From Cordylochernes scorpioides (lineage: Eukaryota; Arthropoda; Arachnida; Pseudoscorpiones; Chernetidae), in assembly GCA_030710605.1 (NCBI GenBank), contig CP092880.1:14054454-14118453 (forward strand): DNA of 64,000 bases, given 5' to 3'. Numbering within the stretch: position 1 is the stretch's first letter; each line of letters begins with the position of its first letter. The notes beneath the pieces were generated by a model. The model was not told where the DNA came from, did not search any database, and saw only the letters and a program-made list of their open reading frames with translations. A program made the translations under genes and the position numbers. Below, piece by piece: positions 8,989-57,850 of the stretch.

Positions 8989-9084
8989 AACAAAAATTAA
9001 ACATTCAGCAAGGCGTTAAAAATCTTTCATAAAAAAAAAAAAAAAAAGATTTGTAACGCCTTGCAGAATGTTTAATTTTTGTTT

Positions 9085-9125
9085 GCTCCTGACGAGGACA
9101 AAATATTTTTGTCGAAACGTCGAGG
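9085..9125 (+). ncRNA. Hammerhead-like motif, ACGU type, right arm
   Basis: Mirror copy of 8947-8988, with GCTC, CTGACGA, hairpin, GAAACGTC and GAGG. The hairpin loop differs by one or two bases. Core boxes are intact and stem III is again the palindrome ACGU without a loop. Confidence 0.55.
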
Positions 9126-9279
9126 TAATAAAAAGATTTATACTGGCCGAAGTATCTTCATTTTCAAGAAATATGAATGCCGGCCAGGCAGCCTCAATAT
9201 TTACGATATACCTTTTCTAATTATTCATTTCCGAGGCTTCTGAGACCTGCTGTCGCTCTTTTCAACGTCAACTATTTTG

Positions 9280-10254: not shown

Positions 10255-10305
10255 TTAAAATCTGCTTTTCACATGTGTGTAGACATGTGGTGCACTTACA
10301 GTAAA
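10255..10305. repeat. Dispersed repeat D, left part
   Basis: CATGTGTGTAGACATGTGG then TGCACTTACAGTAAA. It continues at 11007-11075 after a 701-bp insertion. The uninterrupted relative at 33745-33840 (other strand) shows the pre-insertion order. Confidence 0.7.
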
Positions 10306-11006
10306 TTATAATACAATATAATATAATGCGGCTTATGATTGTAAAACGACATTTGAAATACTATCCCGCATGTGTTTCTTTTAAACGAAAATTCAAAATT
10401 TATTTCAAGGAGAAATAACGATTATTTCTAACCTTTTTGGATGAGGTATGAAAGGGTGAATTGTGAAGAGTAATGATAAACGGAAAAATAAAAACCTAGT
10501 GGACATGGCATCTACCCGGTAAGCGGAACACTGTGGGTTCGGTTCCCATCCCTGGACACTTTTATTTTTCCGTTTATCATTACTCTTCACAATTCACCCT
10601 TTCATACCTCATCCAAAAGGTTAGAAATAATCGTTATTTCTCCTTGAAATAAATTTTGAATTTTTGTTGTAAAGAAACATGCGGGATAGTATTTCAAATG
10701 TCGTTTTACAATAACAAGCCGCATTATATTATATTGTATTATAAATTACTTTATGCATTATATACGAACGGAAAAATATGTCCAGGGTAGCCTAGTGGAC
10801 ATGGCATCTGCCCCGTAAGCGGAACACTGTGGGTTCGGTTCCCATCCCTGGACACTTTTATTTTTCCGTTTATCATTACTCTTCACAATTCACCCTTTCA
10901 TACCTTATCCAAAAGGTTGGAAATAATCATTATTTCTCCTTGAAATAAATTTTGAATTTTCGTTGAAAAGAAACACATGCGGGATAGTATTTCAAATGTC
11001 GTTTTA
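10306..11006. mobile_element. Compound tRNA-like retroelement, copy 1
   Basis: A 701-bp insertion in repeat D, bounded by the 13-bp duplication CACTTACAGTAAA (10293-10305 and 11007-11019). It contains an inverted body (10306-10492), a partial tRNA-like head with direct body (10494-10740), then a complete tRNA-like head (10780-10854) with direct body to 11006. A 13-bp duplication indicates retro-type insertion rather than a cut-and-paste MITE, despite the long inverted repeats. Relatives lie at 23680-23910, 41147-41966 and 46345-46838. Confidence 0.75.
10780..10854 (+). tRNA. tRNA-like head of retroelement (not a normal tRNA)
   Basis: It folds as a cloverleaf: acceptor GTCCAGG/CCTGGAC, anticodon stem TCTGC/GCGGA with loop CCCGTAA, and T-arm containing GGTTCGGTTCCC. 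The loop would present CGT but has C instead of the invariant U before the anticodon, so a working tRNA is unlikely. The internal A- and B-box-like sequences could serve as a polymerase III promoter for the repeat. Confidence 0.55.
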
Positions 11007-11075
11007 CACTTACAGTAAAAGCAGTCGCCTACCTCTAACCACCATGATTATCATGGCCTTTACAACGTGTACTAG
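11007..11075. repeat. Dispersed repeat D, right part
   Basis: Continues repeat D: AAAAGCAGTCGCCTACC, CACCATGATTATCATGGCC, CGTGTACTAGGGATAA. It contains the perfect short palindrome CCATGATTATCATGG. Confidence 0.65.
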
Positions 11076-14623: not shown

Positions 14624-16639
14624 TCTACTTATATAATTGCCTTATTCTGTCTGTCTGTCTGAAGCTCACGGATAGAAAGCGCGCCCATTGGCTGCCGGGC
14701 GAACACGTGACCTCCCTGCCCCCCTCTAGACAACCCTGTTATCAGCAGTGTGTTACATCCACCTGTCTATAGCGGCCATTCTAGACAACCCTGTTATCAG
14801 CAGTGTGTTACATCCACCTGTCTATATAGGTCACCCTGTCTATAGCGGCCACCCTAGATACCCCTGTTATCAGCTGTGTGATACATCCACCTGTCTATAC
14901 AGACCACCCTGCATATAGCGGCCATTCTAGATAACCCTGTTATCAGCTGTGTGATACATACACCTGTCTATACAGGCCACCCTGTATACAGCGTCCACTC
15001 TAGACAACCCTGTTATCAGCTGTGTGATACATACACCTGTCTATAGCGGCCATTCTAGACAACCCTGTTATCAGCAGTGTGTTACATCCACCTGTCTATA
15101 CAGACCACCCTGCATATAGCGGCTATTCTAGATAACCCTGTTATCAGCAGTGTGATACATACACCTGTCTATACAGACCACCCTGTCTATAGCGGCCACT
15201 CTAGACTCCCCTGTTATCAGCTGTGTGATACATCCACCTGTCTATACAGACCACCCTGTCTATAGCGGCCACTCTAGACAACCCTGTTATCAGCTGTGTG
15301 ATACATCCACCTGTCTATACAGACCACCCTGTCTATAGCGGTCACTTTAGGCAACCCTGTTATCACCAGTGTGTTACAATCACCTGTCTATACAGACCAC
15401 CCTGTCTAAAGCGGTCACTTCAGGCAACCCTGTTATCAGCAGTGTGATACATACACCTGTCTATACAGACCACCCTGTCTATAGCGGCTACCCTAGACAA
15501 CCCTGTTATCGGCTGTGTGATACATACACCTGTCTATAGCGGCCACCCTAGACAACCCTGTTATCGGCTGTGTGATACATACACCTGTCTATACAGACCA
15601 CCCTGTCTATAGCGGCTACCCTAGACAACCCTGTTATCGGCTGTGTGATACATACACCTGTCTATAGCGGCCACCCTAGACAACCCTGTTATCGGCTGTG
15701 TGATACATACACCTGTCTATACAGACCACCCTGTCTTTAGCGGCTACCCTAGACAACCCTGTTATCGGCTGTGTGATACATACACCTGTCTATAGCGGCC
15801 ACCCTAGACAACCCTGTTATCGGCTGTGTGATACATACACCTGTCTATACAGACCACCCTGTCTTTAGCGGCCACCCTAGACAACCCTGTTATCGGCTGT
15901 GTGATACATACACCTGTCTATACAGACCACCCTGTCTATAGCGGCCACTCTAGACTCCCCTGTTATCAGCTGTGTGATACATACACCTGTCTATAGCGGC
16001 CATTCTAGACAACCCTGTTATCAGCTGTGTGATACATCCACCTGTCTATACAGACCACCCTGCATATAGCGGCCATTCTAGATAACCCTGTTATCAGCTG
16101 TGTGATACATACACCTGTCTATAGCGGCCATTCTAGACAACCCTGTTATCAGCAGTGTGTTACATCCACCTGTCTATACAGACCACCCTGTCTATAGCGG
16201 CCACTCTAGACTCCCCTGTTATCAGCTGTGTGATACATCCACCTGTCTATACAGACCACCCTGTCTATAGCGGCCACTCTAGACAACCCTGTTATCAGCT
16301 GTGTGATACATCCACCTGTCTATACAGACCACCCTGTCTATAGCGGTCACTTTAGGCAACCCTGTTATCACCAGTGTGTTACAATCACCTGTCTATACAG
16401 ACCACCCTGTCTAAAGCGGTCACTTCAGGCAACCCTGTTATCAGCAGTGTGATACATACACCTGTCTATACAGACCACCCTGTCTATAGCGGCCACCCTA
16501 GACAACCCTGTTATCGGCTGTGTGATACATACACCTGTCTATACAGACCACCCTGTCTATAGCGACCACCCAAGACAACGTGTTTAAAATATATTCGCAC
16601 TCGGGTAAACCCCGGGCGTTGCCCGGGCCATTCGTCTAG
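14624..16639 (+). mobile_element. Non-autonomous Helitron with internal minisatellite
   Basis: Starts with TC (TCTACTTATATAATTGCC) after host A. Ends with the hairpin CCCGGGCGTTGCCCGGG, spacer CCATTCGT and CTAG before host T, with no target duplication, all Helitron hallmarks. Length 2016 bp. A tandem array fills the interior and there is no Rep/helicase ORF. A shorter copy with identical ends is at 35625-36129. Confidence 0.9.
14720..16580. repeat. Minisatellite inside Helitron
   Basis: Units contain AACCCTGTTATCAGC, GTGTGATACAT, CACCTGTCTATACAG and CTATAGCGGCCA. Two unit lengths occur, about 74-75 bp and a shorter one of about 56 bp lacking the ACAGACCACCCTGTCT block, so some parts show a two-unit higher-order pattern (for example 15480-15900). 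Confidence 0.95.
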
Positions 16640-22387: not shown

Positions 22388-22831
22388 CTAGCCGAATGAC
22401 CCGGGCAACGCCCGTGTTTTACCCGATTGAATGTTTTGATTCAAATACTATTTGTTACAATTATAAATTGGCGCCTTAAATAAATGCATATGTTAGTTAA
22501 TAACTATAGCCTATGTGCTTTATCTGTTTATGTACTGTTGGCTTCCGTAGGCGTCTCTTACAGGGAAAAAGAAAGAGAGGGTTCCATTTGGCTATTAATT
22601 AATATATGCATTTATTTAAGGAGCGACCCGCTCCAACACAATAATTACATAAACAAAAAGGCGAGTGGGGGGGGGCATGATCGGGGGGGGGGGGGGGGGG
22701 GGGGGCAAAGGTGGCGTGAGCGTAGCCAACAAATAGGAGGGCGCCATTCCAAAAAAAAAGCAAACGGTGACAGAGACGAAAACTGACTGATGATTAAGAG
22801 ATGAAGAATGACGCTCGTAACTGTATATAGA
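22388..22831 (-). mobile_element. Helitron 3' part, tandem copy 2
   Basis: Second of two head-to-tail copies. It is longer because of inserted G runs, including 23 consecutive G at 22683-22705. It ends near TGTATATAGA, consistent with a 5' TC end on the minus strand. Confidence 0.7.
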
Positions 22832-22844
22832 ATAATTGTCATGG

Positions 22845-23010
22845 CCACATTGCCAGCTAAACAACTCTATGGCAACTTCTCAATATTTCATGAAACTCTT
22901 GTGGATCTCATGGAATCAAAACCCGCCCTGGACTGACGAGAACCATTACCCTAAAACATGGTCTCAATGTGGGTTTTCTGGATTTTCCATTCAAAATAGG
23001 TCCACCTTAA
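22845..23010 (+). repeat. Penelope-like terminal repeat, degenerate hammerhead
   Basis: A diverged copy of the 32745-32990 repeat: GCCAGCTAAACAACTCT, GTGGATCTCATGGAAT, CTGACGAGAACCATTACCC. CTGACGA is kept, but the GAAAC box reads AAAAC and stem II is lost, so the ribozyme is dead. Confidence 0.55.
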
Positions 23011-25915: not shown

Positions 25916-26192
25916 GTTATCTTCCAATAACTTGATTTCTTATAACCGTCGAGCTATCTGGAAAAAAAAAACTTTTCTCCAGATCAGAAAATAGAGATAA
26001 AACATCAAAATTCAAAATAAACTAAGTTAATATAGGAAATTAAACTTATAAACGTAAAACTTAAAACTCCCAAAATATCAAATACTTATATATAGATTGA
26101 ATCCGGAAGGAAATTGATCTATATAGGCTCGCGGCTCCCAGGATGACTCAAGATCGCCAACTAGGAGCGAGCGTAACCTGAAGACGCCTAGA

Positions 26193-27170
26193 ATGGACAT
26201 CGACGAACAAAGTCCCGCCACTGGAGTTTCTCAACAAATGAACGCAGCTCACCCACCGCAAGACGATGAAGAAAATAACGACAACGATGGCCCATGGACC
26301 ACAGTCACTAACGTGAAAAAACCGAGAATTCCTCCTGTTATTGCAGAAAATGTAGCAGATTGGAAGCTTCTTTGCCAAGAACTAAAAGACTTGTGCATGG
26401 AACCATTCCAAGTCACGATTTCTGGCAAAAAGCACATAATTAAATCGAAAAACATAGGCGACTTCAAAAAAATCAGGGAATATGTACAGAAAAATAATGG
26501 AGGATATTCCTACAGACTACAGGAGGAAAAACCGCTAAAAGTGGTATTGAAGGGGGTATCAACAGCCTTCAAAGAAGAAGACGTCGTTACTGAACTGGTC
26601 TCAATGGGCTTCACTGAGGTCATTGTCAAAAGACTCCATAGACAATCGACCAAAATACCGATGAATATAGTCCTAGTAGAGCTACCGAAAAATGAACAAA
26701 ATAAACGAATCTATGGAATAACCGAAATACTTTATCAAAAAATAGTCGTGGAATCATTCAGGACTACAAAACGAGTGACCCAATGCTTTAACTGCCAGGG
26801 TTTTGGGCATGGCCAGCTAAACTGCTTTTTGAAGCCCAAATGCGTCAAGTGTGCTGAAGAACACCATTCGAAGGATTGTCCAAGAAACTCGAAACAGCTC
26901 CCACCAAAGTGCGCTAACTGTGGAGAGGCGCACACAGCCAATTACCGCGGATGCCCAAATTTTCCGAAGCCACAACAACAGCAGCTAAAGCCTCCCAGAC
27001 AAAACTACCCTAACACCATACCTCAAGCAAGCTCCACTAAAACAGAAGAAGCAACTGCTGAAAAACAAAAGGCAAGTTACGCTGAAACTGCAAAAAAGAA
27101 AACTACTCGTTCTGACACCAGGGAACTGTGCGAAAAGTTATTAGAAATTATCAAAACCTTCTTACAATGA
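26193..27170 (+). CDS. LINE ORF1, Gag-like nucleic-acid-binding protein
   Basis: A 325-residue protein starting MDIDEQSPATGV. The N-terminus is acidic and Asn-rich; residues about 80-200 form the PRE_C2HC-type region seen in Jockey Gag proteins (SGKKHIIKSKNIGDFKKI). Three Cys-rich knuckles follow: CFNCQGFGHGQLNC, CVKCAEEHHSKDC and CANCGEAHTANYRGC. They bind element RNA and help direct it to the nucleus in Jockey elements. The C-terminus is Gln/Pro/Lys-rich. It overlaps ORF2 by 43 bases in another frame, a common arrangement that suggests reinitiation for ORF2. The frame looks intact. Confidence 0.9.
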   Translation: MDIDEQSPATGVSQQMNAAHPPQDDEENNDNDGPWTTVTNVKKPRIPPVIAENVADWKLLCQELKDLCMEPFQVTISGKKHIIKSKNIGDFKKIREYVQKNNGGYSYRLQEEKPLKVVLKGVSTAFKEEDVVTELVSMGFTEVIVKRLHRQSTKIPMNIVLVELPKNEQNKRIYGITEILYQKIVVESFRTTKRVTQCFNCQGFGHGQLNCFLKPKCVKCAEEHHSKDCPRNSKQLPPKCANCGEAHTANYRGCPNFPKPQQQQLKPPRQNYPNTIPQASSTKTEEATAEKQKASYAETAKKKTTRSDTRELCEKLLEIIKTFLQ

Positions 27171-28309
27171 AAGGCAAATTACCTTTAAAAATCGTTTTCT
27201 GGAATTGCAACGGAATCAAACTCAAAAAAGAAGAATTCCTACAGTTTTTAGAAGAAAACTCAATAGACATGGCACTGCTCAGTGAAACACACTTAAAACC
27301 ATCTGTCGACCTCAAACTCAGAAACTATCAGACAATAAGAGACGATAGAATCGTTGGAAGGGGCGGTGGAACGGCAATAATTCTAAAAAACTATCTTAAA
27401 TATAAAAAAGTGCTGATTCAAACATCTAACATGGAAAACACCACAATACTAATGAAACCAGATGGAAGGGCAGTAGTGCAGATATCGTCAATCTATAAGA
27501 AACCCGATCTACCACTCCTGGAGGAAGATCTGAATCTCTTGTTAGAGAATAATCAATCAGTAATCGCTGCAGGAGACTGGAACTCCAAGCACCCTCTTTG
27601 GGGCTCAAGAACCTCCAATAATAGTGGAACCGTGCTTCATAATTTTTCCGAAAAAGAAAACCTGGACATTGTCGCACCTTCTTCACCCACGCACTACAGT
27701 CCTTTGGGAAATCCAGACTTTCTAGACATCGCAATTCTTAGAAACATCCCCTGGACTTCGAGGATTAAGACCCTGGATGTCTTATCTTCAGATCACCTCC
27801 CAGTAATCCTAGAGCTGACCTGCCCGAAGGATGAATTCACGACTAGGGCTTGTCGACTCACTAACTGGGTTCACTTCCAACAAGACTTAATTTCCAGTAC
27901 GCCTCCTAGAGTATCCTTGAAAACGGAAGCCAATATTGACTCAGCAGTGACCATACTAAATGATAAAATCTACAACAGCTACTCAAAAAACACGGTTATA
28001 TCATCCTCTTCATCAAAACAGAACCCTTCGACCAAGGCCTTGATAAAAGAAAAGAATAAAGCTCGTAAGAGATGGCAAGCAACCTGGGATCCAGCCCATA
28101 GAGCCATTTATTTAAACCTACAGGGAAAAGTTAACAAAGCCCTCAAATCTGACTCCACCGAGAACTGGAATCAATTCATACACAAGATTGAATCAAGCCC
28201 AAAGGACTTCTGGAGAAAAACAAAACCTATCAGGAAAAAAAACGGAAAGGATCTCAAATTTAGTAATGAACGGCAAAACCTTATTGACCGACAAAGAAAT
28301 CGGAAATGA
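27128..28309 (+). CDS. LINE ORF2 N-terminal part, APE-type endonuclease
   Basis: A 393-residue frame whose ATG lies inside the end of ORF1. The endonuclease shows the expected order: FWNCNGIKLKK, LLSETHL, GRGGGTAIIL, AAGDWNSKHPLWGS, PDFLDIAIL and LSSDHLPVIL, covering catalytic Asn, Glu, Asp/Asn and the SDH triad. The enzyme nicks target DNA to prime reverse transcription. The frame ends early at 28309, while the RT frame is already open from 28188, so a single frameshift within about 28230-28265 (near an A8 run) separates the two. The endonuclease domain itself is complete. Confidence 0.88.
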   Translation: MRKVIRNYQNLLTMKGKLPLKIVFWNCNGIKLKKEEFLQFLEENSIDMALLSETHLKPSVDLKLRNYQTIRDDRIVGRGGGTAIILKNYLKYKKVLIQTSNMENTTILMKPDGRAVVQISSIYKKPDLPLLEEDLNLLLENNQSVIAAGDWNSKHPLWGSRTSNNSGTVLHNFSEKENLDIVAPSSPTHYSPLGNPDFLDIAILRNIPWTSRIKTLDVLSSDHLPVILELTCPKDEFTTRACRLTNWVHFQQDLISSTPPRVSLKTEANIDSAVTILNDKIYNSYSKNTVISSSSSKQNPSTKALIKEKNKARKRWQATWDPAHRAIYLNLQGKVNKALKSDSTENWNQFIHKIESSPKDFWRKTKPIRKKNGKDLKFSNERQNLIDRQRNRK

Positions 28310-29792
28310 ACTTGCAGAACACTTCTCCAACCAGTTCTCCAAGGAAAAAGAAGAAGACCAACCAAACATAACTTATAATCACCAACAAGAAAAAATGCTC
28401 ACAATGACGACACCAAATGAAGTCAAGGAAGTGATTAAATACTTAGCTAACCACAAAGCTCCTGGCCATGACAATATCACTCCGCAAATGGCCAAGAATC
28501 TTCCCATCAAATGGATTGTATTTCTAGCCGGAGTTTTCAACGCCGCACTGCACTTGTGTTACTATCCCAAAGTCTGGAAGCATGCTATCATAATTCCAAT
28601 TCCAAAAAAATCCGCTAAATCCCCTGAAGATCTAAGACCTATCAGCCTCCTCCCCACCATCGGCAAAATTTACGAAAGAATTATTTTACGTAGACTTCAG
28701 AGGTACTTGGACAACTCTAATTTCATCATCCCGCAGCAATTCGGATTTAGAAGGGGGCATTCAACAACTCACCAACTCATTGCAGTTATGGATTACATCC
28801 AGATAAGAAGATCCCACAAGGAAGTGGTAGGTGCAGTCTTTCTAGATTTTGCGAAAGCATTTGATAAAGTTTGGCATAATGGCATTATAAAGAAACTCAC
28901 AAAACACCAGTTTCCAAGTGACATTATAAATTTTATGCAGAATTATCTACAGGGCAGGACATTTTCAGTCAAGCAAGGAAATTTTATAACTGAACCAAAG
29001 CCAATCCAGACTGGAGTACCTCAAGGCTCTATCCTCGGACCCTACCTTTTCAATATTTACATTAATGACATCCCACTGCACTCTAAATGTAAACTTAAGC
29101 TCTTCGCAGATGACACAGCAATTTTATTTAACTCTAAATCAGTCGACCTATTGGTTACTCAGCTTCAGAACTACCTAAATGACATAATCAAATGGTGCGA
29201 TGAGTGGAAACTAGACATTAACCCAACTAAGACTCAAGCAATAGTTTTTCCCCCAAGAGATAACAAAAAATTCAAGCCACAAACCAACTTGACAGTAAAC
29301 TCAAGCACTATTAGTTGGGCCGACCATGCCAAGTATCTTGGTGTCACTTTGGATTCGAAATTAAAATTTAACCTACATGTCCAAAACACGATAAGAAAGG
29401 CAAAGATAGCCAAAATAGCTCTATCAAGTCTGCTTAATTTTAAAAGTAATTTAACAACAAAGCATAAATTCACGTTGTACAAAACCTGTATTCTACCCAT
29501 CATCACGTACGCACTACCAGTCTGGGGCAAATATATCACACCTACGGATAAAAAAAGAATAGATGCCTTCATAAGGATTTGCTTACGAACCATTATAGGA
29601 GCCCCATTCAATCTTTCAAACAAAATTCTCAAAGAAGATCTCAACCAGCCTAATATAGAAGAGATTTATCAAGACTCTGCGACAAGACTATCCTCGCAAT
29701 TTCAAAAATCATCAAATCCAACTATACAAGAAATTGTTCAAAATCAAGGTGACCTCAGCCACCGAATCCGACGACCTGGACCCAATGGCTAG
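28188..29792 (+). CDS. LINE ORF2 C-terminal part, reverse transcriptase
   Basis: An open frame of 534 codons holds the RT domain in order: HKAPGHDNITPQM, ISLLPTIGKIYERI, QFGFRRGHSTTHQL, VFLDFAKAFDKVWH (motif A), GVPQGSILGPYLFN (motif B), LKLFADDTAIL (motif C, catalytic FADD) and KYLGVTLDSKL. Catalytic aspartates are kept. The listed start at 28188 is only the first ATG after the frameshift; the true protein would begin in the endonuclease frame. No RNase H domain, as expected for Jockey. The C-terminus ends RRPGPNG. Confidence 0.9.
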   Translation: MNQAQRTSGEKQNLSGKKTERISNLVMNGKTLLTDKEIGNELAEHFSNQFSKEKEEDQPNITYNHQQEKMLTMTTPNEVKEVIKYLANHKAPGHDNITPQMAKNLPIKWIVFLAGVFNAALHLCYYPKVWKHAIIIPIPKKSAKSPEDLRPISLLPTIGKIYERIILRRLQRYLDNSNFIIPQQFGFRRGHSTTHQLIAVMDYIQIRRSHKEVVGAVFLDFAKAFDKVWHNGIIKKLTKHQFPSDIINFMQNYLQGRTFSVKQGNFITEPKPIQTGVPQGSILGPYLFNIYINDIPLHSKCKLKLFADDTAILFNSKSVDLLVTQLQNYLNDIIKWCDEWKLDINPTKTQAIVFPPRDNKKFKPQTNLTVNSSTISWADHAKYLGVTLDSKLKFNLHVQNTIRKAKIAKIALSSLLNFKSNLTTKHKFTLYKTCILPIITYALPVWGKYITPTDKKRIDAFIRICLRTIIGAPFNLSNKILKEDLNQPNIEEIYQDSATRLSSQFQKSSNPTIQEIVQNQGDLSHRIRRPGPNG

Positions 29793-31169: not shown

Positions 31170-32740
31170 TATAAAATGCTCTAAAAAGTGCACAAGAAAA
31201 ATAACCAAATCCAAGATTAGCTAATATGCAACTCAATATATAAATTTTGTGTTTAAAACTTATAAAATTATTATATCAAATATAGTTTGAAAAAATATTT
31301 CGAAATTTTAATTAATATATATATAATATAATTAATAAATTATACTTCATATTCTATTTTAAGACCTATTTAAAATTGAAGTACTCATTGCACCCCAAAA
31401 TATACATTTTAAAAAACCCCATTCGTGGGAGAAAAATTAAAAAACAATAAACAAAAAGAATGCGTGCAGAATATCAAATGCTAAAAAATTAGAATTCCCA
31501 GAAGAATTCGTCTGAAACACAAAAATAAGATAACGTAGGCAGACGACAGCTTTCCACTTGAGGTTATTAATTCCGGACGACGGCTAAGCCTAGCGGCAGG
31601 AATTCCACCACAGCCGATCATTCATGGCGCCAACCACATGCATGCCAAGCGTCTGCGCAAGCCTAGACAATAATTTCAAACCAAGCGACGCGACACGCCT
31701 AATAAAAACATGCATCATTTCGTGTGATTTATTAGTTTTCCCTCGTCTTTTAATTAATATTAATTCACAGAGTTATTACTCGGTGGTATTATTTATTCCA
31801 CCAGTCACCTACCTCTGGTTATCATCAATGCCTGAGTCATCACGTGATCTATGGGATGACATTGGTGTCATTAGGAAATTACTCGCTTTTTTTAGTTAAA
31901 CGCTTTTTATTGTTTTTATACTCGCCATTTTAGGTTATTTTGAAACACTAAATTATACCTAATTTAATAAATTATTCAAATATATTATTGTATTTATTTT
32001 TGACAATTATTTTCCCTTTATATTTTGTAAAATTTATGTTACGAATTTTATTTTATTTTTGTGTGTTGTCTTGTTTTCGTAATAATTAAATATTATTGTG
32101 TGTGTGTTCTAAAAATATAAATATATTAATAAATATTCATGGTTAAATTTGAAAATTATTTTGAATTTACTATTTCGACAGAATGTAGTTGAACAAACAA
32201 GGTAGTAGTAAATTGCAGAAACAGTTTGTGTAATAAAAAAACATATATTTTCTATGTAGATTTTTAATATTGATAAAATATTTTAAATCTTTTTATGATT
32301 TCTATAAATAAAATTCTCTTATATATTATTTCCATCTATTTTTGACCACTAAAGGTGTTGTTGTTGTATAAAAAGAGTTTTTCCATTTGACTCTTTATTT
32401 TCTCGTTTAATCACTTTAATAAAATAAGAAAAATTTAGTCTATGATATAAAATGTAAAATTCCATTATTAAAATTTGACTGCAATACCTGGCGTCTGATT
32501 TTAAAACGTATAATAAAACGTCAAATCATTTTGTTAGGCACACACATATTATCTAAAGTTAAATTCTCATTGGAAGCTTGGTTGTCGAAATAAATAAGAA
32601 CATATACATTTAAAAGTTGAAAAGCAAAAGTGTTTAAAAAAACTATAAAATATATATATAAATATTTATAAATTATAAAAATATTAAAACCAATTTTTAA
32701 AAACTCAAAGAAAATTTTGCCGTGAAATTTTCCATCTATA
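31170..32740. other. AT-rich stretch with unassigned island
   Basis: Mostly AT-rich. A GC-richer island at 31540-31720 has a weak open frame (31624-31899 +) with no recognised domain; it could be an exon or an old repeat. Confidence 0.35.
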
Positions 32741-32744
32741 TTTT

Positions 32745-32990
32745 GGCTTTGCCACTTTGCCAGCTAAACACTTCTTTGTCAGATTGTGAAGACTCCATTA
32801 GATCACGTGTGGATCTCATGGAATAAATTCCGGCCTAGACTGACGAGGGCCATTAGCCCGAAACCATAGTCTCTAGGTGGACGCTTCTCAGTTTACCAAA
32901 GCTGGTGTTGTGGCTTTGTCAACGACCCTAGGCCGCTAGTTTGCGGCGACGGTCAATAGATGGCGTCTGGTTTAAACGTATAAGTTGCGG
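32745..32990 (+). mobile_element. Penelope-like terminal repeat with hammerhead ribozyme
   Basis: A repeat unit marked by TTTGCCAGCTAAACACTTC, GTGGATCTCATGGAATAAAT, the ribozyme at 32834-32877, AAGCTGGTGTTGTGGC and GGTCAATAGATGGCGTCTGG. Diverged copies lie at 22845-23010 (+), 53195-53390 (+) and 53505-53600 (-). Type I hammerheads with very short stem III are known from the terminal repeats of Penelope-like retroelements, hence the label. No Penelope RT or GIY-YIG endonuclease is present in the window. Confidence 0.7.
32834..32877 (+). ncRNA. Type I hammerhead ribozyme, complete
   Basis: All parts are present and in order. Stem I 5' strand CCTAGA (32834-32839); core CTGACGA (32840-32846, fits CUGANGA); stem II GGGC (32847-32850) and GCCC (32856-32859) around loop CATTA; core GAAA (32860-32863); stem III A-C/G-U with loop CATA; cleavage triplet GTC (32869-32871); stem I 3' strand TCTAGG (32872-32877), exactly complementary to CCTAGA. 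Cleavage is expected after C32871. No core base is mutated. Confidence 0.88.
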
Positions 32991-33284
32991 GAGAGGTGTT
33001 CTTTATCTTTTTAGAAATTATTTCAGTTGAAACAATGCGACCGTGGAAATTCAAAATTCACTCTATACTAAAGACCAATAGTTTGAAGGAGACAGTAAAT
33101 GGTAAGTCAACTATAGAATGATTCCAGGATGAAAAAAAATGATGCTGAGAAGGTGAATTTAAAAAGATGCCAAGGTACTGAAAATATGTATATTCAATTT
33201 TGACAGAACAGTTCTTTATCATATTTTAATTACTCCAGTTCTTCGAAAGGATGATGATAAAAACTACTTACCACAATTATATAT
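32991..33284. other. AT-rich spacer
   Basis: No gene seen. ACACAATTATATAT-like sequence at 33271-33284 is the left target duplication of the next element. Confidence 0.45.
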
Positions 33285-33657
33285 CAAATTACAAAACTAT
33301 TTTAGAGGCGTAATATTCTTTTTAAAATAAAACAATTTCTACTGTCCTTACTGCAATGAAAAATTATATTTAATTCTGCTGTCCTAAAGCTTATGTCCAT
33401 AGTTCTTCTAAAATACCCATTCCAAGAGTCTTACAACAGTCAACTATAAAAGGAAGTTCCAAAAATGCAATATAACAGCGGTATGGCAGATTAAACTGGC
33501 GAAACCGCTGGGAGGGTTCACCACTGATGAGCCAGGCCCTCCCTTTAATTTTTCCATTGCAGTAAGGACAGTAGAAATTGTTTTATTTTAAAAAGAATAT
33601 TACGCCTCTAAAATAGTTTTGTAATTTGATAACAGATGGCGCGCTAGTGCATCGTAA
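33285..33657 (+). mobile_element. Repeat family A, complete copy with 76-bp inverted arms
   Basis: The best-preserved copy. The inverted arms 33283-33358 and 33555-33630 match perfectly over 76 bp (including CTACTGTCCTTACTGCAATG). The direct repeat ACAATTATATAT flanks it (33273-33284 and 33659-33670), suggesting retro-type insertion. The right end continues past the arm with AGATGGCGCGCTAGTGCATC. The interior has GGCGAAACCGCTGGGAGGG and CCACTGATGAGCC. No ORF. Confidence 0.75.
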
Positions 33658-35461: not shown

Positions 35462-36200
35462 TCCCTTTAGATATAAAAACACCTTCTACTGTCCTTACTA
35501 CAATTGAAAAATATTGGAAAGGTGTGACCCATCAGTGGTGAACCCTTCTATCAGTTTCGCCACTTTAATCAACCATACCGTTATGATATTGCATGCATAC
35601 ATCTGATATTGTACTAAGCTATTATCTACTTATATAATTGCCTTATTCTGAAGCTCACGGATAGAATGCGCGCCCATTGGCTGCCGGCGAACACGTGTCC
35701 TCCCTGCCCCCCTCTAGACAACCCTGTTATCGGCTGTGTGATACATACACCTGTCTATAGCGGCCACTCTAGACAACCCTGTTATCAGCTGTGTGATACA
35801 TCCACCTGTCTATACAGTCCACCCTGTCTACAGCGGTCACTCTAGGCAACCCTGTTATCATCAGTGTGTTACATTCACCTGTCTATACAGACCACCCTGT
35901 CTATAGCGGTCACTTTAGGCAACCCTGTTATCAGCAGTGTGATACATACACCTGTCTATACAGACCACCCTGTCTATAGCGGCCACTCTAGACAACCCTG
36001 TTATCAGCTGTGTGATACATACACCTGTCTATACAGACCACCCTGTCAATAGCGACCACCCAAGACAACGTTTTTTAAATATATTCGCACTCGGGTAAAA
36101 CCCGGGCGTTGCCCGGGCCATTCGTCTAGTGAGTATATATCCGACACTTGAATTCTTTTCCCATTGCAGTAAGGATAGTAAGAGACGTTTTATTCATAGA
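35462..36200 (-). mobile_element. Repeat family A copy split by a Helitron
   Basis: The left part 35462-35624 has CTTCTACTGTCCTTACTAC and CCCATCAGTGGTGAACCC; the right part from 36130 has CCCATTGCAGTAAGGATAGT. A Helitron sits between them at 35625-36129. The order of events is clear: family A first, then the Helitron. Confidence 0.75.
35625..36129 (+). mobile_element. Non-autonomous Helitron with minisatellite, short copy
   Basis: Same ends as 14624-16639: TCTACTTATATAATTGCC at the start, hairpin CCCGGGCGTTGCCCGGG plus CTAG at the end, inserted between A and T. Only about five minisatellite units remain, against about 28 in the long copy. Confidence 0.9.
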
Positions 36201-36210
36201 ATAAAAAATC

Positions 36211-36994
36211 AAACACTTGTTTGTTGACAATGTTATCATTAACACTTGTTTGTTGACAATGTTATCATTAACACTTGTTTGTTGACAATGTTATCATTAA
36301 CACTTGTTTGTTGACAATGTTATAATTAACACTTGTTTGTTGACAATGTTATAATTAACACTTGTTTGTTGACAATGTTATCATTAACACTTGTTTGTTG
36401 ACAATGTTATAATTAACACTTGTTTGTTGACAATGTTATAATTAACACTTGTTTGTTGACAATGTTATTATTAACACTTGTTTGTTGACAAGGTTATAAT
36501 TAACACTTGTTTGTTGGCAATGTTATCATTAACACTTGTTTGTTGACAATGTTATCATTAACACTTGTTTGTTGACAACGTTATAATTAACACTTGTTTG
36601 TTGGCAATGTTATAATTAACACTTGTTTGTTGACAATGTTATCATTAACATTTGTTTGTTGACAATGTTATAATTAACACTTGTTTGTTGACAATGTTAT
36701 AATTAACACTTGTTTGTTGACAATGTTATCATTAACACTTGTTTGTTGACAATGTTATAATTAACACTTGTTTGTTGACAATGTTATCATTAACACTTGT
36801 TTGTTGACAATGTTATCATTAACACTTGTTTGTTGACAATGTTATAATTAACACTTGTTTGTTGACAATGTTATCATTAACACTTGTTTGTTGACAATGT
36901 TATCATTAACACTTGTTTGTTGACAATGTTATAATTAACACTTGTTTGTTGACAATGTTATCATTAACACTTGTTTGTTGACAATGTTATCATG
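36211..36994. repeat. 29-bp minisatellite
   Basis: About 27 units of AACACTTGTTTGTTGACAAT + GTTATCATT. The main variable base is C or A in the last ATCATT/ATAATT, and the two forms are mixed along the array. Confidence 0.97.
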
Positions 36995-37003
36995 AACACT
37001 CTT

Positions 37004-37270
37004 GTTGTTGTTGTGTATTAGTCATTTGATGAACACAAGGCATAACTTAGAAAGGTAACAGACGGTGACACCAATATAATAGTTGCTAAAAAGGATGAAG
37101 GCAAATAAAATCCTAATTATGATGGTGGTGGTGGTGCTTATCTCCACGGTTAAACCAATTCCTGAAGTCCACTCCTCTCCAATTTTGCGATGGTAGTTAT
37201 AGGCCTGGAAAATAGGTCCTCTATTGTCAGTTCTGAGCATGACAAGATATGTTCCGGAGAAGCTTCTACA
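37004..37270 (-). mobile_element. LINE 3' end fragment with AAC tail (minus)
   Basis: The left edge TTGTTGTTGTTGTG is the complement of a CAA tail. A minus frame (37022-37240) has no RT motif. The context suggests a short 5'-truncated LINE. Confidence 0.4.
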
Positions 37271-39890: not shown

Positions 39891-41146
39891 TTTTTTTCTA
39901 CAGAAAAAACGTTCTGTCCGCAGAATGACCTCTACGACACTATCAGTGATGTGGTCACTGGTCAAATATTTTAGTTTTTTTCTCTGCGATGTATGACCGG
40001 CTGCTTCCTTCTTTGAGGAGTCATAACTTTGGCCGTCAATTTATTCGTCTGGATCCCGGGATATATGGCCTCGTAGCCCCATCTATTTTGGTTGTGTTCT
40101 GGTTTATAACATATAGACCTCTTGGTGAGCCGTTTTTACCTTTATGTCGGTTAGTTTATCTAAACTACCTGATTTATAGGAATTATCTACAGTATTATTT
40201 TCATTAATTCCTCCTTGTAGGTTTATGATATGAATATATCTCTGATAAATATCTTTTTCCCCTTTTGTTTTAGGACTCACACGGGAAATATGTAAAAATG
40301 TTTTCTATAAGAATACTTTACGAATTGTATTTTTCATTCCTTAAGATCTATCATAAGTGGAAGCATTTTTATTGATATTCTGTTATCATCCAAAGAAGAG
40401 GCCATAACTTCAAGATATGGTATTCGCGCCTATTACATAAATCTAGTTAACATTTTTTTAAAATTCAAATATTGTTAATAGCTTAATTAGATATGCAAAT
40501 TTTAACTGTATAAAAACAGCTAGTTGGACAAATAAAGGTGTGTAGTCAGTCATTGAATAGGTCTAGTTCTTTGAGTCTGTGTTCCAATTAATTAGCGTTT
40601 GGAGATTCACCTAGTTGAAGAGGCTTGATGTTGTTCATGTAGTCAGAAGGTTTTATGAAGAATAGAACGGCTCTAATTCGAGGATATTAACCAGCTGAAA
40701 GGCCTGGCTTATCTAGATACAGTCTCTGCCAAACCAAAGCATAAAGTACTAGCCAGGCTTATAGAGACAGAGGAAATGGCAAGGATTCCTAGATATCGCT
40801 GCTAGGCCCGAAGTTGCACCCACCCACATGGTATTTCTTCTGGAGATGGTCTGTTCATTAGAGGTTGAATTATATCAGGTAAGCCATTTTTGTTTTTACA
40901 TAGTGTCTCAAAATTCACATGAGAAATAATTTTGATAGAGAACACAGATTTAAAAATTTTAAAAATGTGTACATATTTTTATAGATTATTAAAGTATGCA
41001 GTATAGGGTTATAGATATAGAAGAGAATATCTAAATATGATAGATTAGGAATATGCAAATAAGTCCTTGAACGCGCTAACTAGCATATTCTAGTGACGGA
41101 AAATAGTTAGGATTATAATAATATATATTTAAAATACAATATAACG
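39891..41146. other. Unassigned sequence
   Basis: A weak frame at 39989-40207 (+) without a domain. A TATA-like CTGTATAAAAACAGC at 40508 followed by AGTCAGTC resembles an LTR promoter and is similar to 46920-46970. No gene established. Confidence 0.3.
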
Positions 41147-41455
41147 CGGCTGATGATTGTAAAACGAAAATTAAAATTATACCGCGAATGTTTCTTTTAA
41201 AATCGAAATTTATTTTCAAAGAGAAATAGCGACATTTCTAACTTTGAGGATGAGGTATGGAAAGGTGAAACATGAAGAGTAATGGAGAACGGAAAAATAA
41301 AAAGTGTCCAGGGGCGGGAATCGAACCCACACTCTTCTGCTTACCGGGCAGGGAAACATGAAGAGTAATGGAGAACGGAAAAATAAAAAGTGTCCAGGGG
41401 CGGGAATCGAACCCACACCCTTCTGCTTACCGGGCAGTTATGAACGGAAAAATAC

Positions 41456-41530
41456 GTCCAGGGTAGCCGAGTGGACAAGGCACCTGCCCGGTAAGCAGAA
41501 GGGTGTGGGTTCGATTCCCGCCCCTGGACA
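41456..41530 (+). tRNA. tRNA-like head of retroelement
   Basis: Acceptor GTCCAGG/CCTGGAC, D-arm GTAGCCGAGTGGACAAGGC, anticodon stem CTGC/GCAG with loop CCGGTAA (would read GGT) and T-arm GGGTTCGATTCCCGC. C replaces the invariant U33, so decoding is doubtful. Confidence 0.55.
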
Positions 41531-41743
41531 CTTTTTATTTTTCCGTTCTCCATTACTCTTCATGTTTCACCTTTCCATACCTCATCCTCAAAGTTAGAAA
41601 TGTCGCTATTTCTCTTTGAAAATAAATTTCGATTTTAAAAGAAACATTCGCGGTATAATTTTAATTTTCGTTTTACAATCATCAGCCGCGTTATATTGTA
41701 TTTTAAATGTTACTTTAAATATAAGTTATGAACGGAAAAATAC

Positions 41744-41818
41744 GTCCAGGGTAGCCGAGTGGACAAGGCACCTGCCCGGTAAGCAGAAGGGTGTGGGTTC
41801 GATTCCCGCCCCTGGACA
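41744..41818 (+). tRNA. tRNA-like head of retroelement, second
   Basis: Identical by eye to 41456-41530. It belongs to the second direct unit of the compound element. Confidence 0.55.
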
Positions 41819-42266
41819 CTTTTTATTTTTCCGTTCTCCATTACTCTTCATGTTTCACCTTTCCATACCTCATCCTCAAAGTTAGAAATGTCGCTATTTC
41901 TCTTTGAAAATAAATTTCGATTTTAAAAGAAACATTCGCGGTATAATTTTAATTTTCGTTTTACAATAATATATATGTCATAATTTGCATAATACCCAAG
42001 AGGTATAATTTCTTTTCGCCAAAATAAGTATGTTAAACTGTAAATATGTTAAGCTTGTGTTAAATTGTAAATACAAATTCATCCATCTATAAATACACTG
42101 TACAAAATAAGCGTGGGAGCCAGCTCGGGCGAATGCTACGGCACGCCGCGTGTGCGCGCCTCACTTGACTGGAGCTAATCTTTGAAGTTTACATGCATAG
42201 TGGTGGCACACGTTCATTCGATCACGACATATATATATTAGGCCAGAGGGTCAACAGCCCGAAACA

Positions 42267-46145: not shown

Positions 46146-46344
46146 AGAACCAAAATAAATCTTTTGTTCAATCCAATACATACCTTTTAATTATCTAAAG
46201 TTGGTCTATGTAACAGCCTGCTCATGTCAAGAGACTTCTTGGAATGCATTGTCACTTGTAATGTAACCTGATGCCGCTTTCACAGATGACGGGAAATTTG
46301 AGAAGGTTTGGCTACTGTATATGTCTGATATATATGGCGTGTAA

Positions 46345-46838
46345 AACGAAAATTGAAATTATACCGCGAATGTTTCCTTTATAAAAATCGAAATTTATTT
46401 TCAAAGAGAAATAGCGACATTTCTAACTTTGAGGATGAGGCATGGAAAGGTGAAACATGAAGAGTAATGGCGAACGGAAAAATAAAAAGTGTCCAGGGGC
46501 GGGAATCGAACATACACCCTTCTGCTTACCGGGCAGGTGCCTTGTCCACTCGGCTACCCTGGACGTATTTTTCCGTTCGTAACTAATACTTAAAGTAACA
46601 TTTAAAATACAATGCCCGGTAAGCAGAAGGGTGTGGGTTCGATTCCCGCCCCTGGACACTTTTTATTTTTCCGTTCGCCATTACTCTTCATGTTTCACCT
46701 TTCCATGCCTCATCCTCAAAGTTAGAAATGTCGCTATTTCTCTTTGAAAATAAATTTCGATTTTTATAAAGGAAACATTCGCGGTATAATTTCAATTTTC
46801 TTTTACAATCATCAGCCGCGTTATATTGTATTTTAAAT
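46345..46838. mobile_element. Compound tRNA-like retroelement, copy 3
   Basis: A minus unit with a complete tRNA-like head (46490-46564) faces a plus unit with a truncated head (46613-46660). The bodies form long inverted arms outside. Family as at 41147-41966. Confidence 0.75.
46490..46564 (-). tRNA. tRNA-like head of retroelement
   Basis: The minus copy of the GTCCAGG-type cloverleaf. One B-box base is changed (TTCGATTCCCGC is intact but the stem before it reads GTGTATG), so it is more decayed than 41456-41530. Confidence 0.5.
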
Positions 46839-46852
46839 ATATGGCGTGTGTT

Positions 46853-47160: not shown

Positions 47161-47293
47161 TAATAAAATTTATTTTAGAAAATCCTTAAAAATATGTAAA
47201 TAATAAATAATCGTATTTTACTTTAAGATAGAGGTTGTCTGACCGGCATTCATATTCTAAAATAAAAGACACTCCGGCCAGAAAGAATTCTAT

Positions 47294-47336
47294 TTTTTGA
47301 CGTTTTGACAAAAATATTTTGTTCTCGTCAGAAAAA
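47294..47336 (-). ncRNA. Hammerhead-like motif, ACGU type, left of pair
   Basis: Minus strand: TTTTT, CTGACGA, hairpin ACAAAATATTTTTGT, AAAAC, GTC, AAAAA. Stem I is TTTTT/AAAAA. GAAAC has become AAAAC. Confidence 0.5.
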
Positions 47337-47345
47337 AAAAAAACA

Positions 47346-47392
47346 TTTTTCTTGACGAGGACAAAAGATTTTTCTGTCGAAACGTCGAAAAA
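47346..47392 (+). ncRNA. Hammerhead-like motif, ACGU type, right of pair
   Basis: TTTTTC, TTGACGA, hairpin GACA...TGTC, GAAAC, GTC, GAAAAA. Stem I TTTTTC/GAAAAA has six pairs and a sequence different from the 8947/9085 copies. Only the first C of CUGANGA is changed. Confidence 0.5.
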
Positions 47393-47399
47393 ATAAAAC

Positions 47400-52024: not shown

Positions 52025-52969
52025 CAACGTGTGATCAATAATTTCCAGGAATGAAACTGTATCACGTAAAATATTCAAAATAATGAAATAATTTTATAAG
52101 AACCTTATAGATAAAACATTTATCAACACGTAGAAAATAAATTTATCACACAGACGCACGCGCTCACGTTTTTTTCGAATTTATAAGCTCGAGTATATCA
52201 GAACATTTTCTAACTTCAGTATGGACTGTATTGAAAAACAGCGAGTCTGCATAGAGTTTTGCTTTAAATTAGGGAAAACAGCTTCCGAATCATTTCAAAT
52301 GTTGAAGAAGGCTTTTAAAGAAGATGCCCTATCACAATCGAGGACATTTGGATGGTTTGCACGATTTAAAGCTGGTCGAACAAGCGTCAAGGATGATCTA
52401 CACACTGGCAGACCTTTATCGATAAGAAACCCCGAAAATTCACTTTCTTTGATGTGAAGGGATTGGTACACTATGAATTCGTGCCCGAGGGTCAGACCAT
52501 AAATCAACATTACTATCTTGATGTATTGCGACGTTTAATGGAGGCTGTGCGTCAGAAACGACCCGAAAATGGCATCAGAAAAATTGACCCTTACATCATG
52601 ACAACGCACGGCCACATACGGCCGTCACTGTACAACTCTATTTGGCTAAACACGGAATTGCTTTATTACCCCAGCCACCCTATTCTCCTGACGTTGCTCC
52701 CAACGACTTTTTCCTTTACCCTAAAATTAAAAAAGTCTTAAAAGGACGTCGATTTGACTCAATACCTGAAATAAAGGAGAATTTGAAAAATATTTTGAAA
52801 AGCCTGAAAGATGAGGATTTTCAGAAGGGTTTTGATATATGGAAAAAAAGATGGAACAAGTGTATAGATAGTGACGGTGATTATTTTGAGAAATTTGAAA
52901 TAAAACTTTATTATACTTTTGTATTTCTTTAAATATTTAGCATTCCTGTAAATTATTGATTACACTATG
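52025..52969 (+). mobile_element. Mariner element with internal deletion
   Basis: TA-flanked, with inverted ends GTGATCAATAATTTCCAGGAA and TTCCTGTAAATTATTGATTAC. 945 bp, shorter than a usual mariner of about 1.3 kb because the middle of the transposase gene is missing. Not the family of the 1-520 remnant. Confidence 0.85.
52221..52932 (+). pseudogene. Mariner transposase, deleted and frameshifted
   Basis: The N-terminus is intact: MDCIEKQRVCIEFCFKLGK to WFARFKAGRTSVKDD, LHTGRPLS, the HTH domain. The frame stops at 52457. A second frame (52454) reads KGLVHYEFVPEGQTINQHYY, the region after the first catalytic Asp, which is therefore lost. The last frame includes HDNARPHTAV and YSPDVAPNDFFLYPK; the two Asp are 34 residues apart, the mariner D34D spacing. 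It ends GDYFEKFE. Non-functional. Confidence 0.85.
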
Positions 52970-53194
52970 TATATACAATATATGGATGGCGCGTTGTTGC
53001 TTTGTGTTAATATATCTTTGTAATTTAAATCTATACATATATGAATTTATTATTATATTCAAAAAATATCTACATTTTCTGGTCAAAATAGACACTGAAA
53101 CTGAGAGTTATATTTTGACTGCAAACTTGTAGACTCGGTTCGGCGTCGAAGCCATAGACATCCTTCTCTATTTCGGCCACATAGTTTCTCTAGC

Positions 53195-53390
53195 CACTAA
53201 GCACCTTTTTAACAAATTCTGAAGAATTTCAAAAATCCATTGAAAATCTCATGAAATCCAATTCCGCCTTGGTCTGACAATGGTCATTACCCTTGAACCA
53301 TGGTACTCAGGTAGACGCTCTGAATTTTCCAAAGCTGGTGTTATGCTAGATTGCGAAGACAGTCAATAGATGGCGCTTAGTTAGGTCGGG
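53195..53390 (+). repeat. Penelope-like terminal repeat, degenerate copy (plus)
   Basis: AATCTCATGAAATCCAATTC, TCTGACAATGGTCATTACCC, TTGAACCATGGTA, AAGCTGGTGTTATGC and GTCAATAGATGGCGC match 32745-32990. CUGACAA and TGAAC are mutated core boxes. Confidence 0.55.
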
Positions 53391-53504
53391 ATGTTAACTG
53401 TTAAGATTAGTTAGGATCTTATTGGTTTGACTGGTAGAACAGATGCATTAAATTAGGTGGCATCCATTAGCCGTCTCTGAAAAATAGCAAACTCGGGTTG
53501 GTTG

Positions 53505-53600
53505 CAAAACCACAACGTCAGCTTTGGAAAATACAGAAGGCCACATGGAGACAATGGTTTCGGGCCTTCGTCAATCCAGAGAAGGTTTTGATATAACGAG
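53505..53600 (-). repeat. Penelope-like terminal repeat, degenerate copy (minus)
   Basis: Minus strand: CTGGA, TTGACGA, AGGCCC, GAAAC, CATT, GTC, TCCATG, followed by AAGCTGACGTTGTGG inverted. GAAAC and GTC are intact, but the hairpin loop is deleted and CUGANGA is changed. It faces the plus copy at 53195, a head-to-head pair. Confidence 0.5.
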
Positions 53601-53764
53601 ATACACACAAGAGATTCATTATATTTTCAGAATAGTCCAAAGAAGTGTATAGCTGACAAAGGTGACTCGGCCAGTTCGATATGGAATATAGATGGGCATT
53701 TTGTCGTGAGAATGTCGGCTTGTTTGATAACACTGGTTCACTAAGGCTACCAAGACAGGACAGG

Positions 53765-56431: not shown

Positions 56432-57850
56432 CACTGCGTGACATTGAAAATGGAACACCAAGAAATAGTGGCCAGAAATTGATGAAACTCGGCAGACAGA
56501 GAGAGACAGGGACGAACAATAAGTGATCTTTATTTCAAAATGATAGTCATAATACAGAGCGAGAACGGCGTCGGCTTAGTAGCAAGTAGAACCACCGCGG
56601 ACGGCGATGCACGCAGCAACACGTCTAGGTAGAGAGTCAATCAGAGTACGGATGGCGTCCTGAGGGATGGCTCTCCATTCCCTCTCAACCATTTGCCACA
56701 GTTCGTCTTCTGAACGCGGCTGTGGCAAGGCATGCAAACGGCGTCCAATGATGTCCCAGACGTGCTCGATTGGTGAGAGATCAGGAGAGTACGGTGGCCA
56801 GGGAAGCATCTGTACATCTTGCAGAGCTTGTTGGCTAATGCGAGCAGTGTGCGGTCGGGCGTTATCCTGCTGATAAAGGGCATTGGGTACCCCCTGAAGG
56901 TAGGGGAGTGTCACCGGTCGCAGCACATCATCAACGTATCGTTGGGCCGTCATAGTGCCCTGAATACGAAGTAAAGGTGACCTGAATTCATACGCGATTG
57001 CGCCCCAAACCATGATTCTACGTTGTCGCACGGTGGGGCGTTCCACAATTGCTGCCGGTTTGGACCTTTCTCCACGTCGACGCCACACGCGTACACGGCG
57101 ACTATCACTGGACAAGCAGAAACGCGACTCATCTGAGAACACGACCCTGTGCCATTCCGTCATCCACGTCGATCTAGCCCGGCACCATTCCAAACGTTGG
57201 CGCCTATTCGGTGGGATCAATGGCAGTCTTCTTAGCGGACGGCATGAGTGCAAGCCATTAGCAACCAATCGACGGGAAATGGTTCTGGTCGAGATGGAAT
57301 GATCTAGGGTGTCTTGCACATGTTGCAGGATGGCGGTACAAGTTGCTTGTGGGGCCGCCACTGCTTGTCGAATGATACGCCGATCCACACGTGCTGACGT
57401 CACTCTGGTTGCACCGACATTCCTATAAATTGCCACATTTCCTTGTTCCAACCATCTTCTCCACAGTCGGTGCACCGTGGACGCACTAAGGTGTGTATCA
57501 GCTGCGATTTGACGTATGGACCAACCTGCCCTTTTCAGTCCGATCACCATGCCCCTCGTAAAAGCGTCTGTCTGCTTGAACTGCCTCCGTTTACGATGAC
57601 CTGGCATTCTCTGTTATTACACGTGTCTTTTGACACAAGAACAAAATTTCTACCATGATTTTCCTTGAAGAAATAACGACACGAATACTGTCCTTTCTGC
57701 AAGTTCCTTCCCTTATATCTTAGTCCATGTGCGCACGAGAGCTGCGCATTTTACATCATTTGCATAACTCGGTTAGGCGCGTCTACCCTGAAATTTGCAT
57801 AATTTTCTGGCCACTATTTATTGGTGTTCCATTTTCAATGTCACGCAGTG
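56432..57850 (-). mobile_element. Tc1-type transposon, complete and apparently intact
   Basis: Inverted ends of about 46 bp (CACTGCGTGACATTGAAAAT ... GTGGCCAGAAA) differ at only one or two positions, and TA flanks both sides. 1419 bp with one transposase ORF on the minus strand. Intact ORF, matching ends and clean TA indicate a young insertion. Confidence 0.95.
56576..57607 (-). CDS. Tc1-like transposase, full length (343 aa)
   Basis: Cut-and-paste transposase. Residues about 10-120 form two helix-turn-helix units: SIRQIAADTHLSASTVHRLW and HSISTRTISRRLVANGLH, with an Arg-rich linker. The catalytic triad is D159 (VVFSDESRF), D248 (QQDNARPHTA) and E281 (SPDLSPIEHVW), with WGAI between them. 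I count 32 residues between D248 and E281, two fewer than classical DD34E Tc1 enzymes. The ATG at 57607 gives MPGHRKRRQF, a basic N-terminus normal for the family. No stop or frameshift. Such proteins are common in arthropod genomes. Confidence 0.95.
   Translation of the reverse strand: MPGHRKRRQFKQTDAFTRGMVIGLKRAGWSIRQIAADTHLSASTVHRLWRRWLEQGNVAIYRNVGATRVTSARVDRRIIRQAVAAPQATCTAILQHVQDTLDHSISTRTISRRLVANGLHSCRPLRRLPLIPPNRRQRLEWCRARSTWMTEWHRVVFSDESRFCLSSDSRRVRVWRRRGERSKPAAIVERPTVRQRRIMVWGAIAYEFRSPLLRIQGTMTAQRYVDDVLRPVTLPYLQGVPNALYQQDNARPHTARISQQALQDVQMLPWPPYSPDLSPIEHVWDIIGRRLHALPQPRSEDELWQMVEREWRAIPQDAIRTLIDSLPRRVAACIAVRGGSTCY

Follow-up and report, generated by a model that had tools for sequence, protein, structure and literature searches.

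Which kind of mobile element carries the hammerhead ribozyme encoded in this stretch of pseudoscorpion DNA, and which enzyme would have moved it? Insertion ends with the tail signature of Penelope-like elements (PLEs) provide a direct, countable test of which enzyme disperses the retrozymes of animals. Our analysis covers a window of 64,000 nt from Cordylochernes scorpioides and related loci fetched from its own genome (2.62 Gb in 24 contigs).

The hammerhead and its repeat families

The motif at 32834–32877 on the forward strand is confirmed as a genuine type I hammerhead at the level of sequence, and its self-cleavage is predicted. Stem I is formed by CCTAGA (32834–32839) and TCTAGG (32872–32877), and reaches seven pairs in the descriptor scan when one G–U is counted. 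Between its two strands lie the core segment CTGACGA (32840–32846), stem II GGGC/GCCC (32847–32850/32856–32859) with the loop CATTA (32851–32855), the core segment GAAA (32860–32863), the C of stem III (32864) followed by the loop CATA (32865–32868), and the cleavage triplet GTC (32869–32871). Stem III consists of two pairs, A–T and C–G, under the CATA loop. The core CUGANGA...GAAA...NUH and three helices, open at stem I, are all present, in agreement with the sequence-only reading, whose list of invariant parts and stems was read in the sequence as claimed. The hammerhead fold predicts cleavage after C32871 of GUC (32871/32872).

A strict type I descriptor, requiring at least five, four and two pairs in stems I, II and III, respectively, gave two matches in the window and one in 1023 dinucleotide shuffles. 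With a looser descriptor, one type I match arose in 40 shuffles, and that match also had at least five pairs in stem I and four in stem II. The check with the covariance model RF00163, which had been proposed for this motif, failed at the Rfam threshold but recovered the exact coordinates of the motif below it: a search of the whole window at the gathering score found no hammerhead, a search of 71 nt returned precisely 32834–32877 with E 0.25 and a score of 14.9 bits against a cut-off of 34, and in the surrounding 1.8 kb the focal hammerhead was not among the matches at E ≤ 10. Across the own genome, none of the 44 listed matches lay above the cut-off, the best listed one scoring 30.5 bits. 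Of 14 control genomes, 11 likewise yield sub-threshold matches; a score from this model is thus no proof by itself, and the case for the focal hammerhead rests on the family data. ViennaRNA, the energy model of which omits core contacts, does not favour the hammerhead fold for the isolated 44-mer (probability 2e-4).

The hammerhead lies in a repeat that we term family A. Its core (32750–32960) has at least 41 matches in the own genome, these being the best-scored of 4165 first-look candidates, and 40 of the 41 listed, the window copy included, show 93–100% identity. Forty of these places (L001–L028 and L059–L070) were studied, the 41st adjoining one of them; they are the best matches to one query and no random sample. 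The window copy is locus L001, in which position p corresponds to window position 31249+p. The unit is 319 nt long, as given by the tandem copies of L027, which start at 1066, 1385, 1704 and 2023; both L027 and L061 contain several complete units with nothing in between. The unit is non-coding, and no open reading frame of at least 110 aa covers the focal copy. By alignment to the L027 unit, the focal copy (32725–33013, +) is a decayed solo copy of about 0.9 of the unit, with an uncertain left end and, on the right, the AGATGGCG motif (32958–32965) and a short tail (together 32955–33013, +). Some 475 nt upstream of that tail, a piece at 32484–32520, TGGCGTCTGATTTTAAAACGTATAA, resembles the tail of the element and is possibly a remnant of an earlier unit.

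The first 28 family A loci contain 36 hammerheads. Neither a core base nor any of the stem pairs counted is lost in 25 of them, and stem I CCTAGA/TCTAGG is found in 30; the other 12 loci add 16 hammerheads, most with the same core. Deviation from the majority base per site and copy amounts to 0.0089 in the hammerhead and 0.0297 in the rest of the core (28 copies), or 0.0054 and 0.0268, respectively, with CpG columns removed, and 10 of 168 windows of hammerhead length, itself included, are equally or more conserved. At least three further mutated copies had been expected in the window, and three were found by profile and BLAST (E 2e-20 to 9e-13); the profile was built from these copies, and their BLAST matches are independent of it. 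All three are older and degenerate. The hammerhead is broken in the copies at 22790–23009 (+; BLAST segment 22836–22972) and 53137–53402 (+; BLAST segment 53246–53345), and stem II carries a deletion in the copy at 53432–53730 (−; BLAST segment 53661–53448). Two of the three have TGGA beside the core in place of the TAGA of the focal family. In one of these two (53544–53580, −), the partner strand reads TCCA by eye, so that both sides of stem I may have changed together.

The stem III strand of family A, ACCATGGT, is a perfect palindrome with a computed self-duplex energy of −11.2 kcal/mol. By comparison, the focal copy and L002 carry ACCATAGT, for which the computed value is +1.4 kcal/mol. 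The difference resides in position 32868, which is G in 26 of 28 aligned loci and A in the focal copy, where it disrupts the palindrome; the description of the focal hammerhead as canonical thus does not hold. Small hammerhead variants are said, in work of 2017 by Lunse, Weinberg and Breaker, to cleave as dimers. Their palindromic, very short stem III is shared by family A (ACCATGGT) and by the second family described below (ACGCGT), whereas the focal copy has lost the palindrome. The view that its very short stem III marks a dimer type agrees with the family, which has the palindrome that dimeric hammerheads need, and is doubtful for this copy, whose short stem III is in part its own defect; of all that had been claimed for the focal copy, activity as a dimer is the least probable. 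With ACCATAGT in place of the palindrome, the focal copy is probably a poor ribozyme, and efficient cleavage is not to be expected of it. As a single hammerhead was found within the copy, its transcript could undergo no more than one cut, and no unit would be released.

A second complete type I hammerhead at 939–979 (−) was supported by BLAST, descriptor and shuffles and belongs to another element, family B. It reads CTGACGA GGGC CAACA GCCC GAAACGCGTC with stem I GGCCACG/CGTGGTT, and the copy is diverged (77% identity to the L050 unit over 128 nt). The best RF00163 matches in the genome led to 30 loci, all of which form one cluster of this element, with a unit of about 350 nt (L042, L050), the hammerhead TCCACG CTGACGA GCGC..GCGC GAAACGCGTT CGTGGA, and a stem III strand, ACGCGT, that is likewise a palindrome. 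Changes on both sides occur at two stem II pairs among 21 of the 30 loci (7 distinct sequences; 4 loci of other length and 5 judged redundant were excluded), a modest covariation that 34 of 500 shuffles reach. These counts come from family B alone; a joint alignment of both families misplaced stems I and III and was left unused.

Insertion ends of the retrozymes and of a Penelope-like element

Mapping of the unit onto the loci reveals that many family A insertions pair a longer copy with a shorter one in the opposite orientation, the two adjoining at their heads, so that both outer ends are 3' tails. These tails have two forms: the short (S) end stops after ..GACCTTTGTCTCTTTA, and the long (L) end continues for about 30 nt through ..GATCAATATCCTCCCGGCAAAATTTCCATC. 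Automatic typing succeeded on both sides in 23 of the 40 loci. Each of these 23 is S/L, and none is S/S or L/L; L062 and L063 are a duplicated locus, leaving 22 independent insertions. The pattern was first noticed on L001–L028, and the 12 later loci contribute 7 of the 23 (6 independent); the typing thresholds were fixed, but were set once all 40 loci had been viewed. The count takes in loci with exactly one typed end per side, the other 17 being solo, complex or untyped. Outside the 23, L005, L008 and L014 appear S/L by eye, L018 has a different geometry with two S tails facing each other, and the focal copy itself has one S end only. L050/L051 and apparently L023/L065 are further duplicated loci. 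In family B, the 3' ends cluster at unit positions 188–203 and 240–246, and of 11 listed junctions the 4 typed at both ends (3 independent loci) are all S/L, the remaining 7 having at least one untyped end.

The two flanks of one insertion were compared at the typed loci. A match of at least 10 nt between them, with one mismatch allowed, was found at 20 of the 23 loci, against 19% of 504 cross-locus pairs; the flanks are AT-rich, and part of the duplications is therefore low-complexity. Clear target duplications by eye are AGTTTAATACT in L008, ACTTCTACTGCCC in L009 and TAAGTTACTTGTA in L013. No poly-A tail was seen at the typed ends of family A loci. In 24 of 31 loci, though not in the other 7, copies within one insertion resemble each other more closely than copies from different loci do, a likeness that a single template or source locus predicts.

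An autonomous PLE of the same genome has the same kind of ends. For the GIY-YIG domain (PF01541), 17015 candidates yielded at least 146 genomic matches; open frames reach 828 aa, several matches are opposite-strand pairs a few kb apart, and 13 of these places were fetched (10 loci for 3' ends and 3 larger loci). In L073, a Pfam scan places RVT_1 and GIY-YIG in one frame, and the ends, typed by eye, are one S and one L with a duplication. The 3' ends of 8 of the 10 fetched loci match window positions 8901–9207. There, at 8903–9208, lies a head-to-head pair of PLE pseudo-LTRs with a hammerhead-like motif in each, S on the left and L on the right; TACCTTTTCTA at 8892 and 9209 makes an 11-bp target duplication around the pair (ends by eye). 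Further degenerate pieces of this pseudo-LTR occur at 47225–47398 on both strands. A different type of GIY-YIG frame, in which some 300 or more residues follow the domain match, occurs in L071 and L072. In L072, RVT_1 lies upstream in a frame of its own, and the GIY-YIG did not pass the Pfam scan of its frame.

Both family A and the PLE allow a Watson–Crick stem of 6–7 bp to be drawn around a 30-nt loop in which the S end lies; the equivalent stem of family B needs one G–U pair and closes a loop of 29 nt, again with the S end inside. Family A has a competing, longer inner hairpin in the S/L region (10 pairs including G–U), at the 3' foot of which the S end is placed, so the loop holding the S end is not bare. 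The family A ends, as read from genomic DNA and with this competing hairpin, show two discrete end points where start sites of reverse transcription (RT) are expected.

Comparable ends are described for characterized PLEs. The PLE tail is the stretch between two RT start sites, and both strands are extended (PMC11167929); the available part of PMC3846280 places the tail on one of two inverted pseudo-LTRs. PAc of Anolis (PMC11167929) and, in the same part of PMC3846280, the Penelope element of Adineta vaga likewise have inverted head-to-head pseudo-LTRs and short duplications, and a tail of about 30 nt may be present; RT there starts internally, in a stem-loop, and PAc also contains a hammerhead. 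As judged from the genomic copies, family A insertions carry this PLE signature, which appears to be new for retrozymes: the passages on retrozyme mobilisation in the literature found, partial in their coverage, contain no analysis of retrozyme insertion ends. PLEs are already a strong candidate there, from co-occurrence, hammerheads and tandem layout (excerpts of PMC7229834 and PMC7761336), and the match between the retrozyme S/L ends and those of the PLE with RT and GIY-YIG supports that published idea.

Mobiliser and template of the element

The focal element is best described as a solo copy, now degenerate, of a type I retrozyme of animals, and a PLE enzyme is most likely its mover. That its hammerhead belongs to a high-copy, non-coding metazoan type I retrozyme spread by a PLE enzyme is, in our judgement, probable. 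Retrozyme units measure about 150–450 bp, carry a type I hammerhead and occur in tandem, and the units of 319 nt (L027) and about 350 nt (L042, L050) have these properties. Metazoan non-LTR retrozymes are further characterized by the lack of LTR, PBS and PPT features, by target duplications of more than 4 bp, for which the flank matches at 20 of the 23 typed loci are candidates, and by circular and linear RNAs of unit length. Family A loci also show the PLE arrangement of inverted or tandem pseudo-LTRs with an optional tail of about 30–40 bp. The reading frame with RT and GIY-YIG that Penelope/Poseidon-type PLEs possess is present in L073 and absent from the 319-nt unit, which we therefore file as an animal type I retrozyme and not as a PLE. 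The sequence-only reading, which had placed the hammerhead in a Penelope-like repeat, was thus correct as to a mobile repeat of Penelope type, but the repeat is not itself a PLE. Its hammerhead also differs from the motif of this genome's PLE: the family A motif is a regular type I hammerhead with a full stem II, whereas the window PLE has an extra base beside the core. In the passages of PMC7229834 on metazoan retrozymes, the type I retrozymes of coral, mussel and axolotl are likewise non-coding units of about 170–400 nt with one type I hammerhead each, and tandem occurrence, duplications of more than 4 bp and coexistence with PLEs are common features. By comparison with what these passages describe, the copies sampled here are mostly solo or head-to-head, long arrays being few (L027, L061), their S/L tails are of the PLE type, and the element is known from genomic DNA alone.

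Other origins of the repeat can be weighed against the same loci. The 319-nt units might be solo pseudo-LTRs of an autonomous PLE family not yet sampled, the coding part of which has been lost; the insertion geometry matches that of the PLE, a solo head-to-head pair of PLE pseudo-LTRs is present in the window at 8903–9208, and pseudo-LTR sequences alone sufficed for integration in trans according to the available part of PMC3846280. We regard this origin as improbable, as L027 and L061 contain complete units back to back with nothing between, and the unit has no BLAST match to the 10 PLE 3' ends or the 3 larger loci, a sample of few PLE families; BLAST of the family B unit against the same 13 places likewise found no similarity. 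A SINE-like element moved by a LINE is considerably less probable still. Twin priming, from which the inverted parts would then derive, leaves one 3' tail per insertion, whereas both outer ends are 3' tails in all 23 typed composites and poly-A was not seen at them; a Jockey-like LINE with endonuclease and RT is nevertheless present in the window, and LINEs too are named as possible retrozyme mobilisers in excerpts of PMC7229834. Finally, the score below the Rfam cut-off would agree with a chance resemblance at 32834–32877 that has no ribozyme history. To this we assign almost no probability, and the family data refute it: the descriptor matches exceed those of the shuffles, the whole motif recurs across the dispersed family A, and family B keeps the same core with different stems I and II.

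If a PLE enzyme moves the retrozyme, its protein would cut both DNA strands, both cut DNA ends would serve as primers for cDNA within the RNA of the element, the first at S and the second at L, and the two cDNAs would then join head to head. In vitro, the RT start site of the Anolis PLE showed no difference between strands (PMC11167929), which speaks against a strict strand rule in vitro but concerns populations and not the two ends of one insertion. Dimerization through the ACCAUGGU palindrome would give the family ribozyme its best activity, with multimeric transcripts as what it processes, and the RNA that is reverse-transcribed could be either circular or uncut and linear.

The 5' ends of the family A copies bear on this template. 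In the published retrozyme model, the template is a circle cut by the hammerhead; from a linear template cut by the hammerhead, copies should start at unit position 143. With segments shorter than 40 nt set aside, 2 of 72 5' ends fall at 139–147, the cleavage site, where 2.0 are expected if ends are uniform, and 14 of 72 fall at 223–231, where the expectation is again 2.0; the duplicated locus L062/L063 accounts for two of the 14, and the set is biased because the loci were picked for containing the hammerhead region. Positions 223–231 form the 5' foot of a structured tail domain in the predicted fold. The 5' ends there fit an uncut RNA starting at this place or a structural stop of RT, and would also be compatible with a circular template. 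These data question whether transposition requires ribozyme cleavage, which accords with in vitro work on the Anolis PLE, where RNA that has not been processed is the main substrate (PMC11167929). A more specific proposal combines obligately asymmetric PLE-type integration, always S/L as would be expected for an enzyme dimer that holds one RNA hairpin, with an uncut linear R-U-R RNA as template, its 5' end near unit position 223–226 and with one intact hammerhead, and no hammerhead-cut circle; we put it forward tentatively, as somewhat less likely to be right than wrong.

Other features of the window

Two other hammerhead-like candidates in the window were rejected. The repeat at 33466–33560 was considered as a type II hammerhead; by eye, its core-like words CTGGCGAAAC...ACTGATGAGCCAG are permuted, no stem I is seen and two plain hairpins can be drawn. 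This short repeat is abundant, with eight aligned copies in the window that conserve words like GGCGAAAC and CCACTGATGAG. The degenerate motif at 34173–34151 (−), with CTGATGAGGGCTAAAGCCCGGAACTATGGTG and CTGATGAGGGCTAAAGCCCGGAAC, was dismissed as an active ribozyme for its G in place of A in GAAA and its GUG triplet.

Protein-coding frames of other mobile elements are also present. A LINE frame with endonuclease and RT occupies 26127–29792 (+) and is presumably Jockey-like, and the transposase frames at 52397–52932 (+) and 56579–57613 (−) are ones that we take to be of the mariner and Tc1 types, respectively. Repeats resembling tRNA-Thr occur at 41127–41970, 46344–46839 and 10294–11008 as inverted pairs of up to 230 nt with 97–100% identity, and the same repeat adjoins a PLE in L078. 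Minisatellites extend over 2580–4300 (period 21 nt), 4868–6590 (50–60 nt), 14634–16577 (55/73 nt) and 36067–37149 (29 nt).
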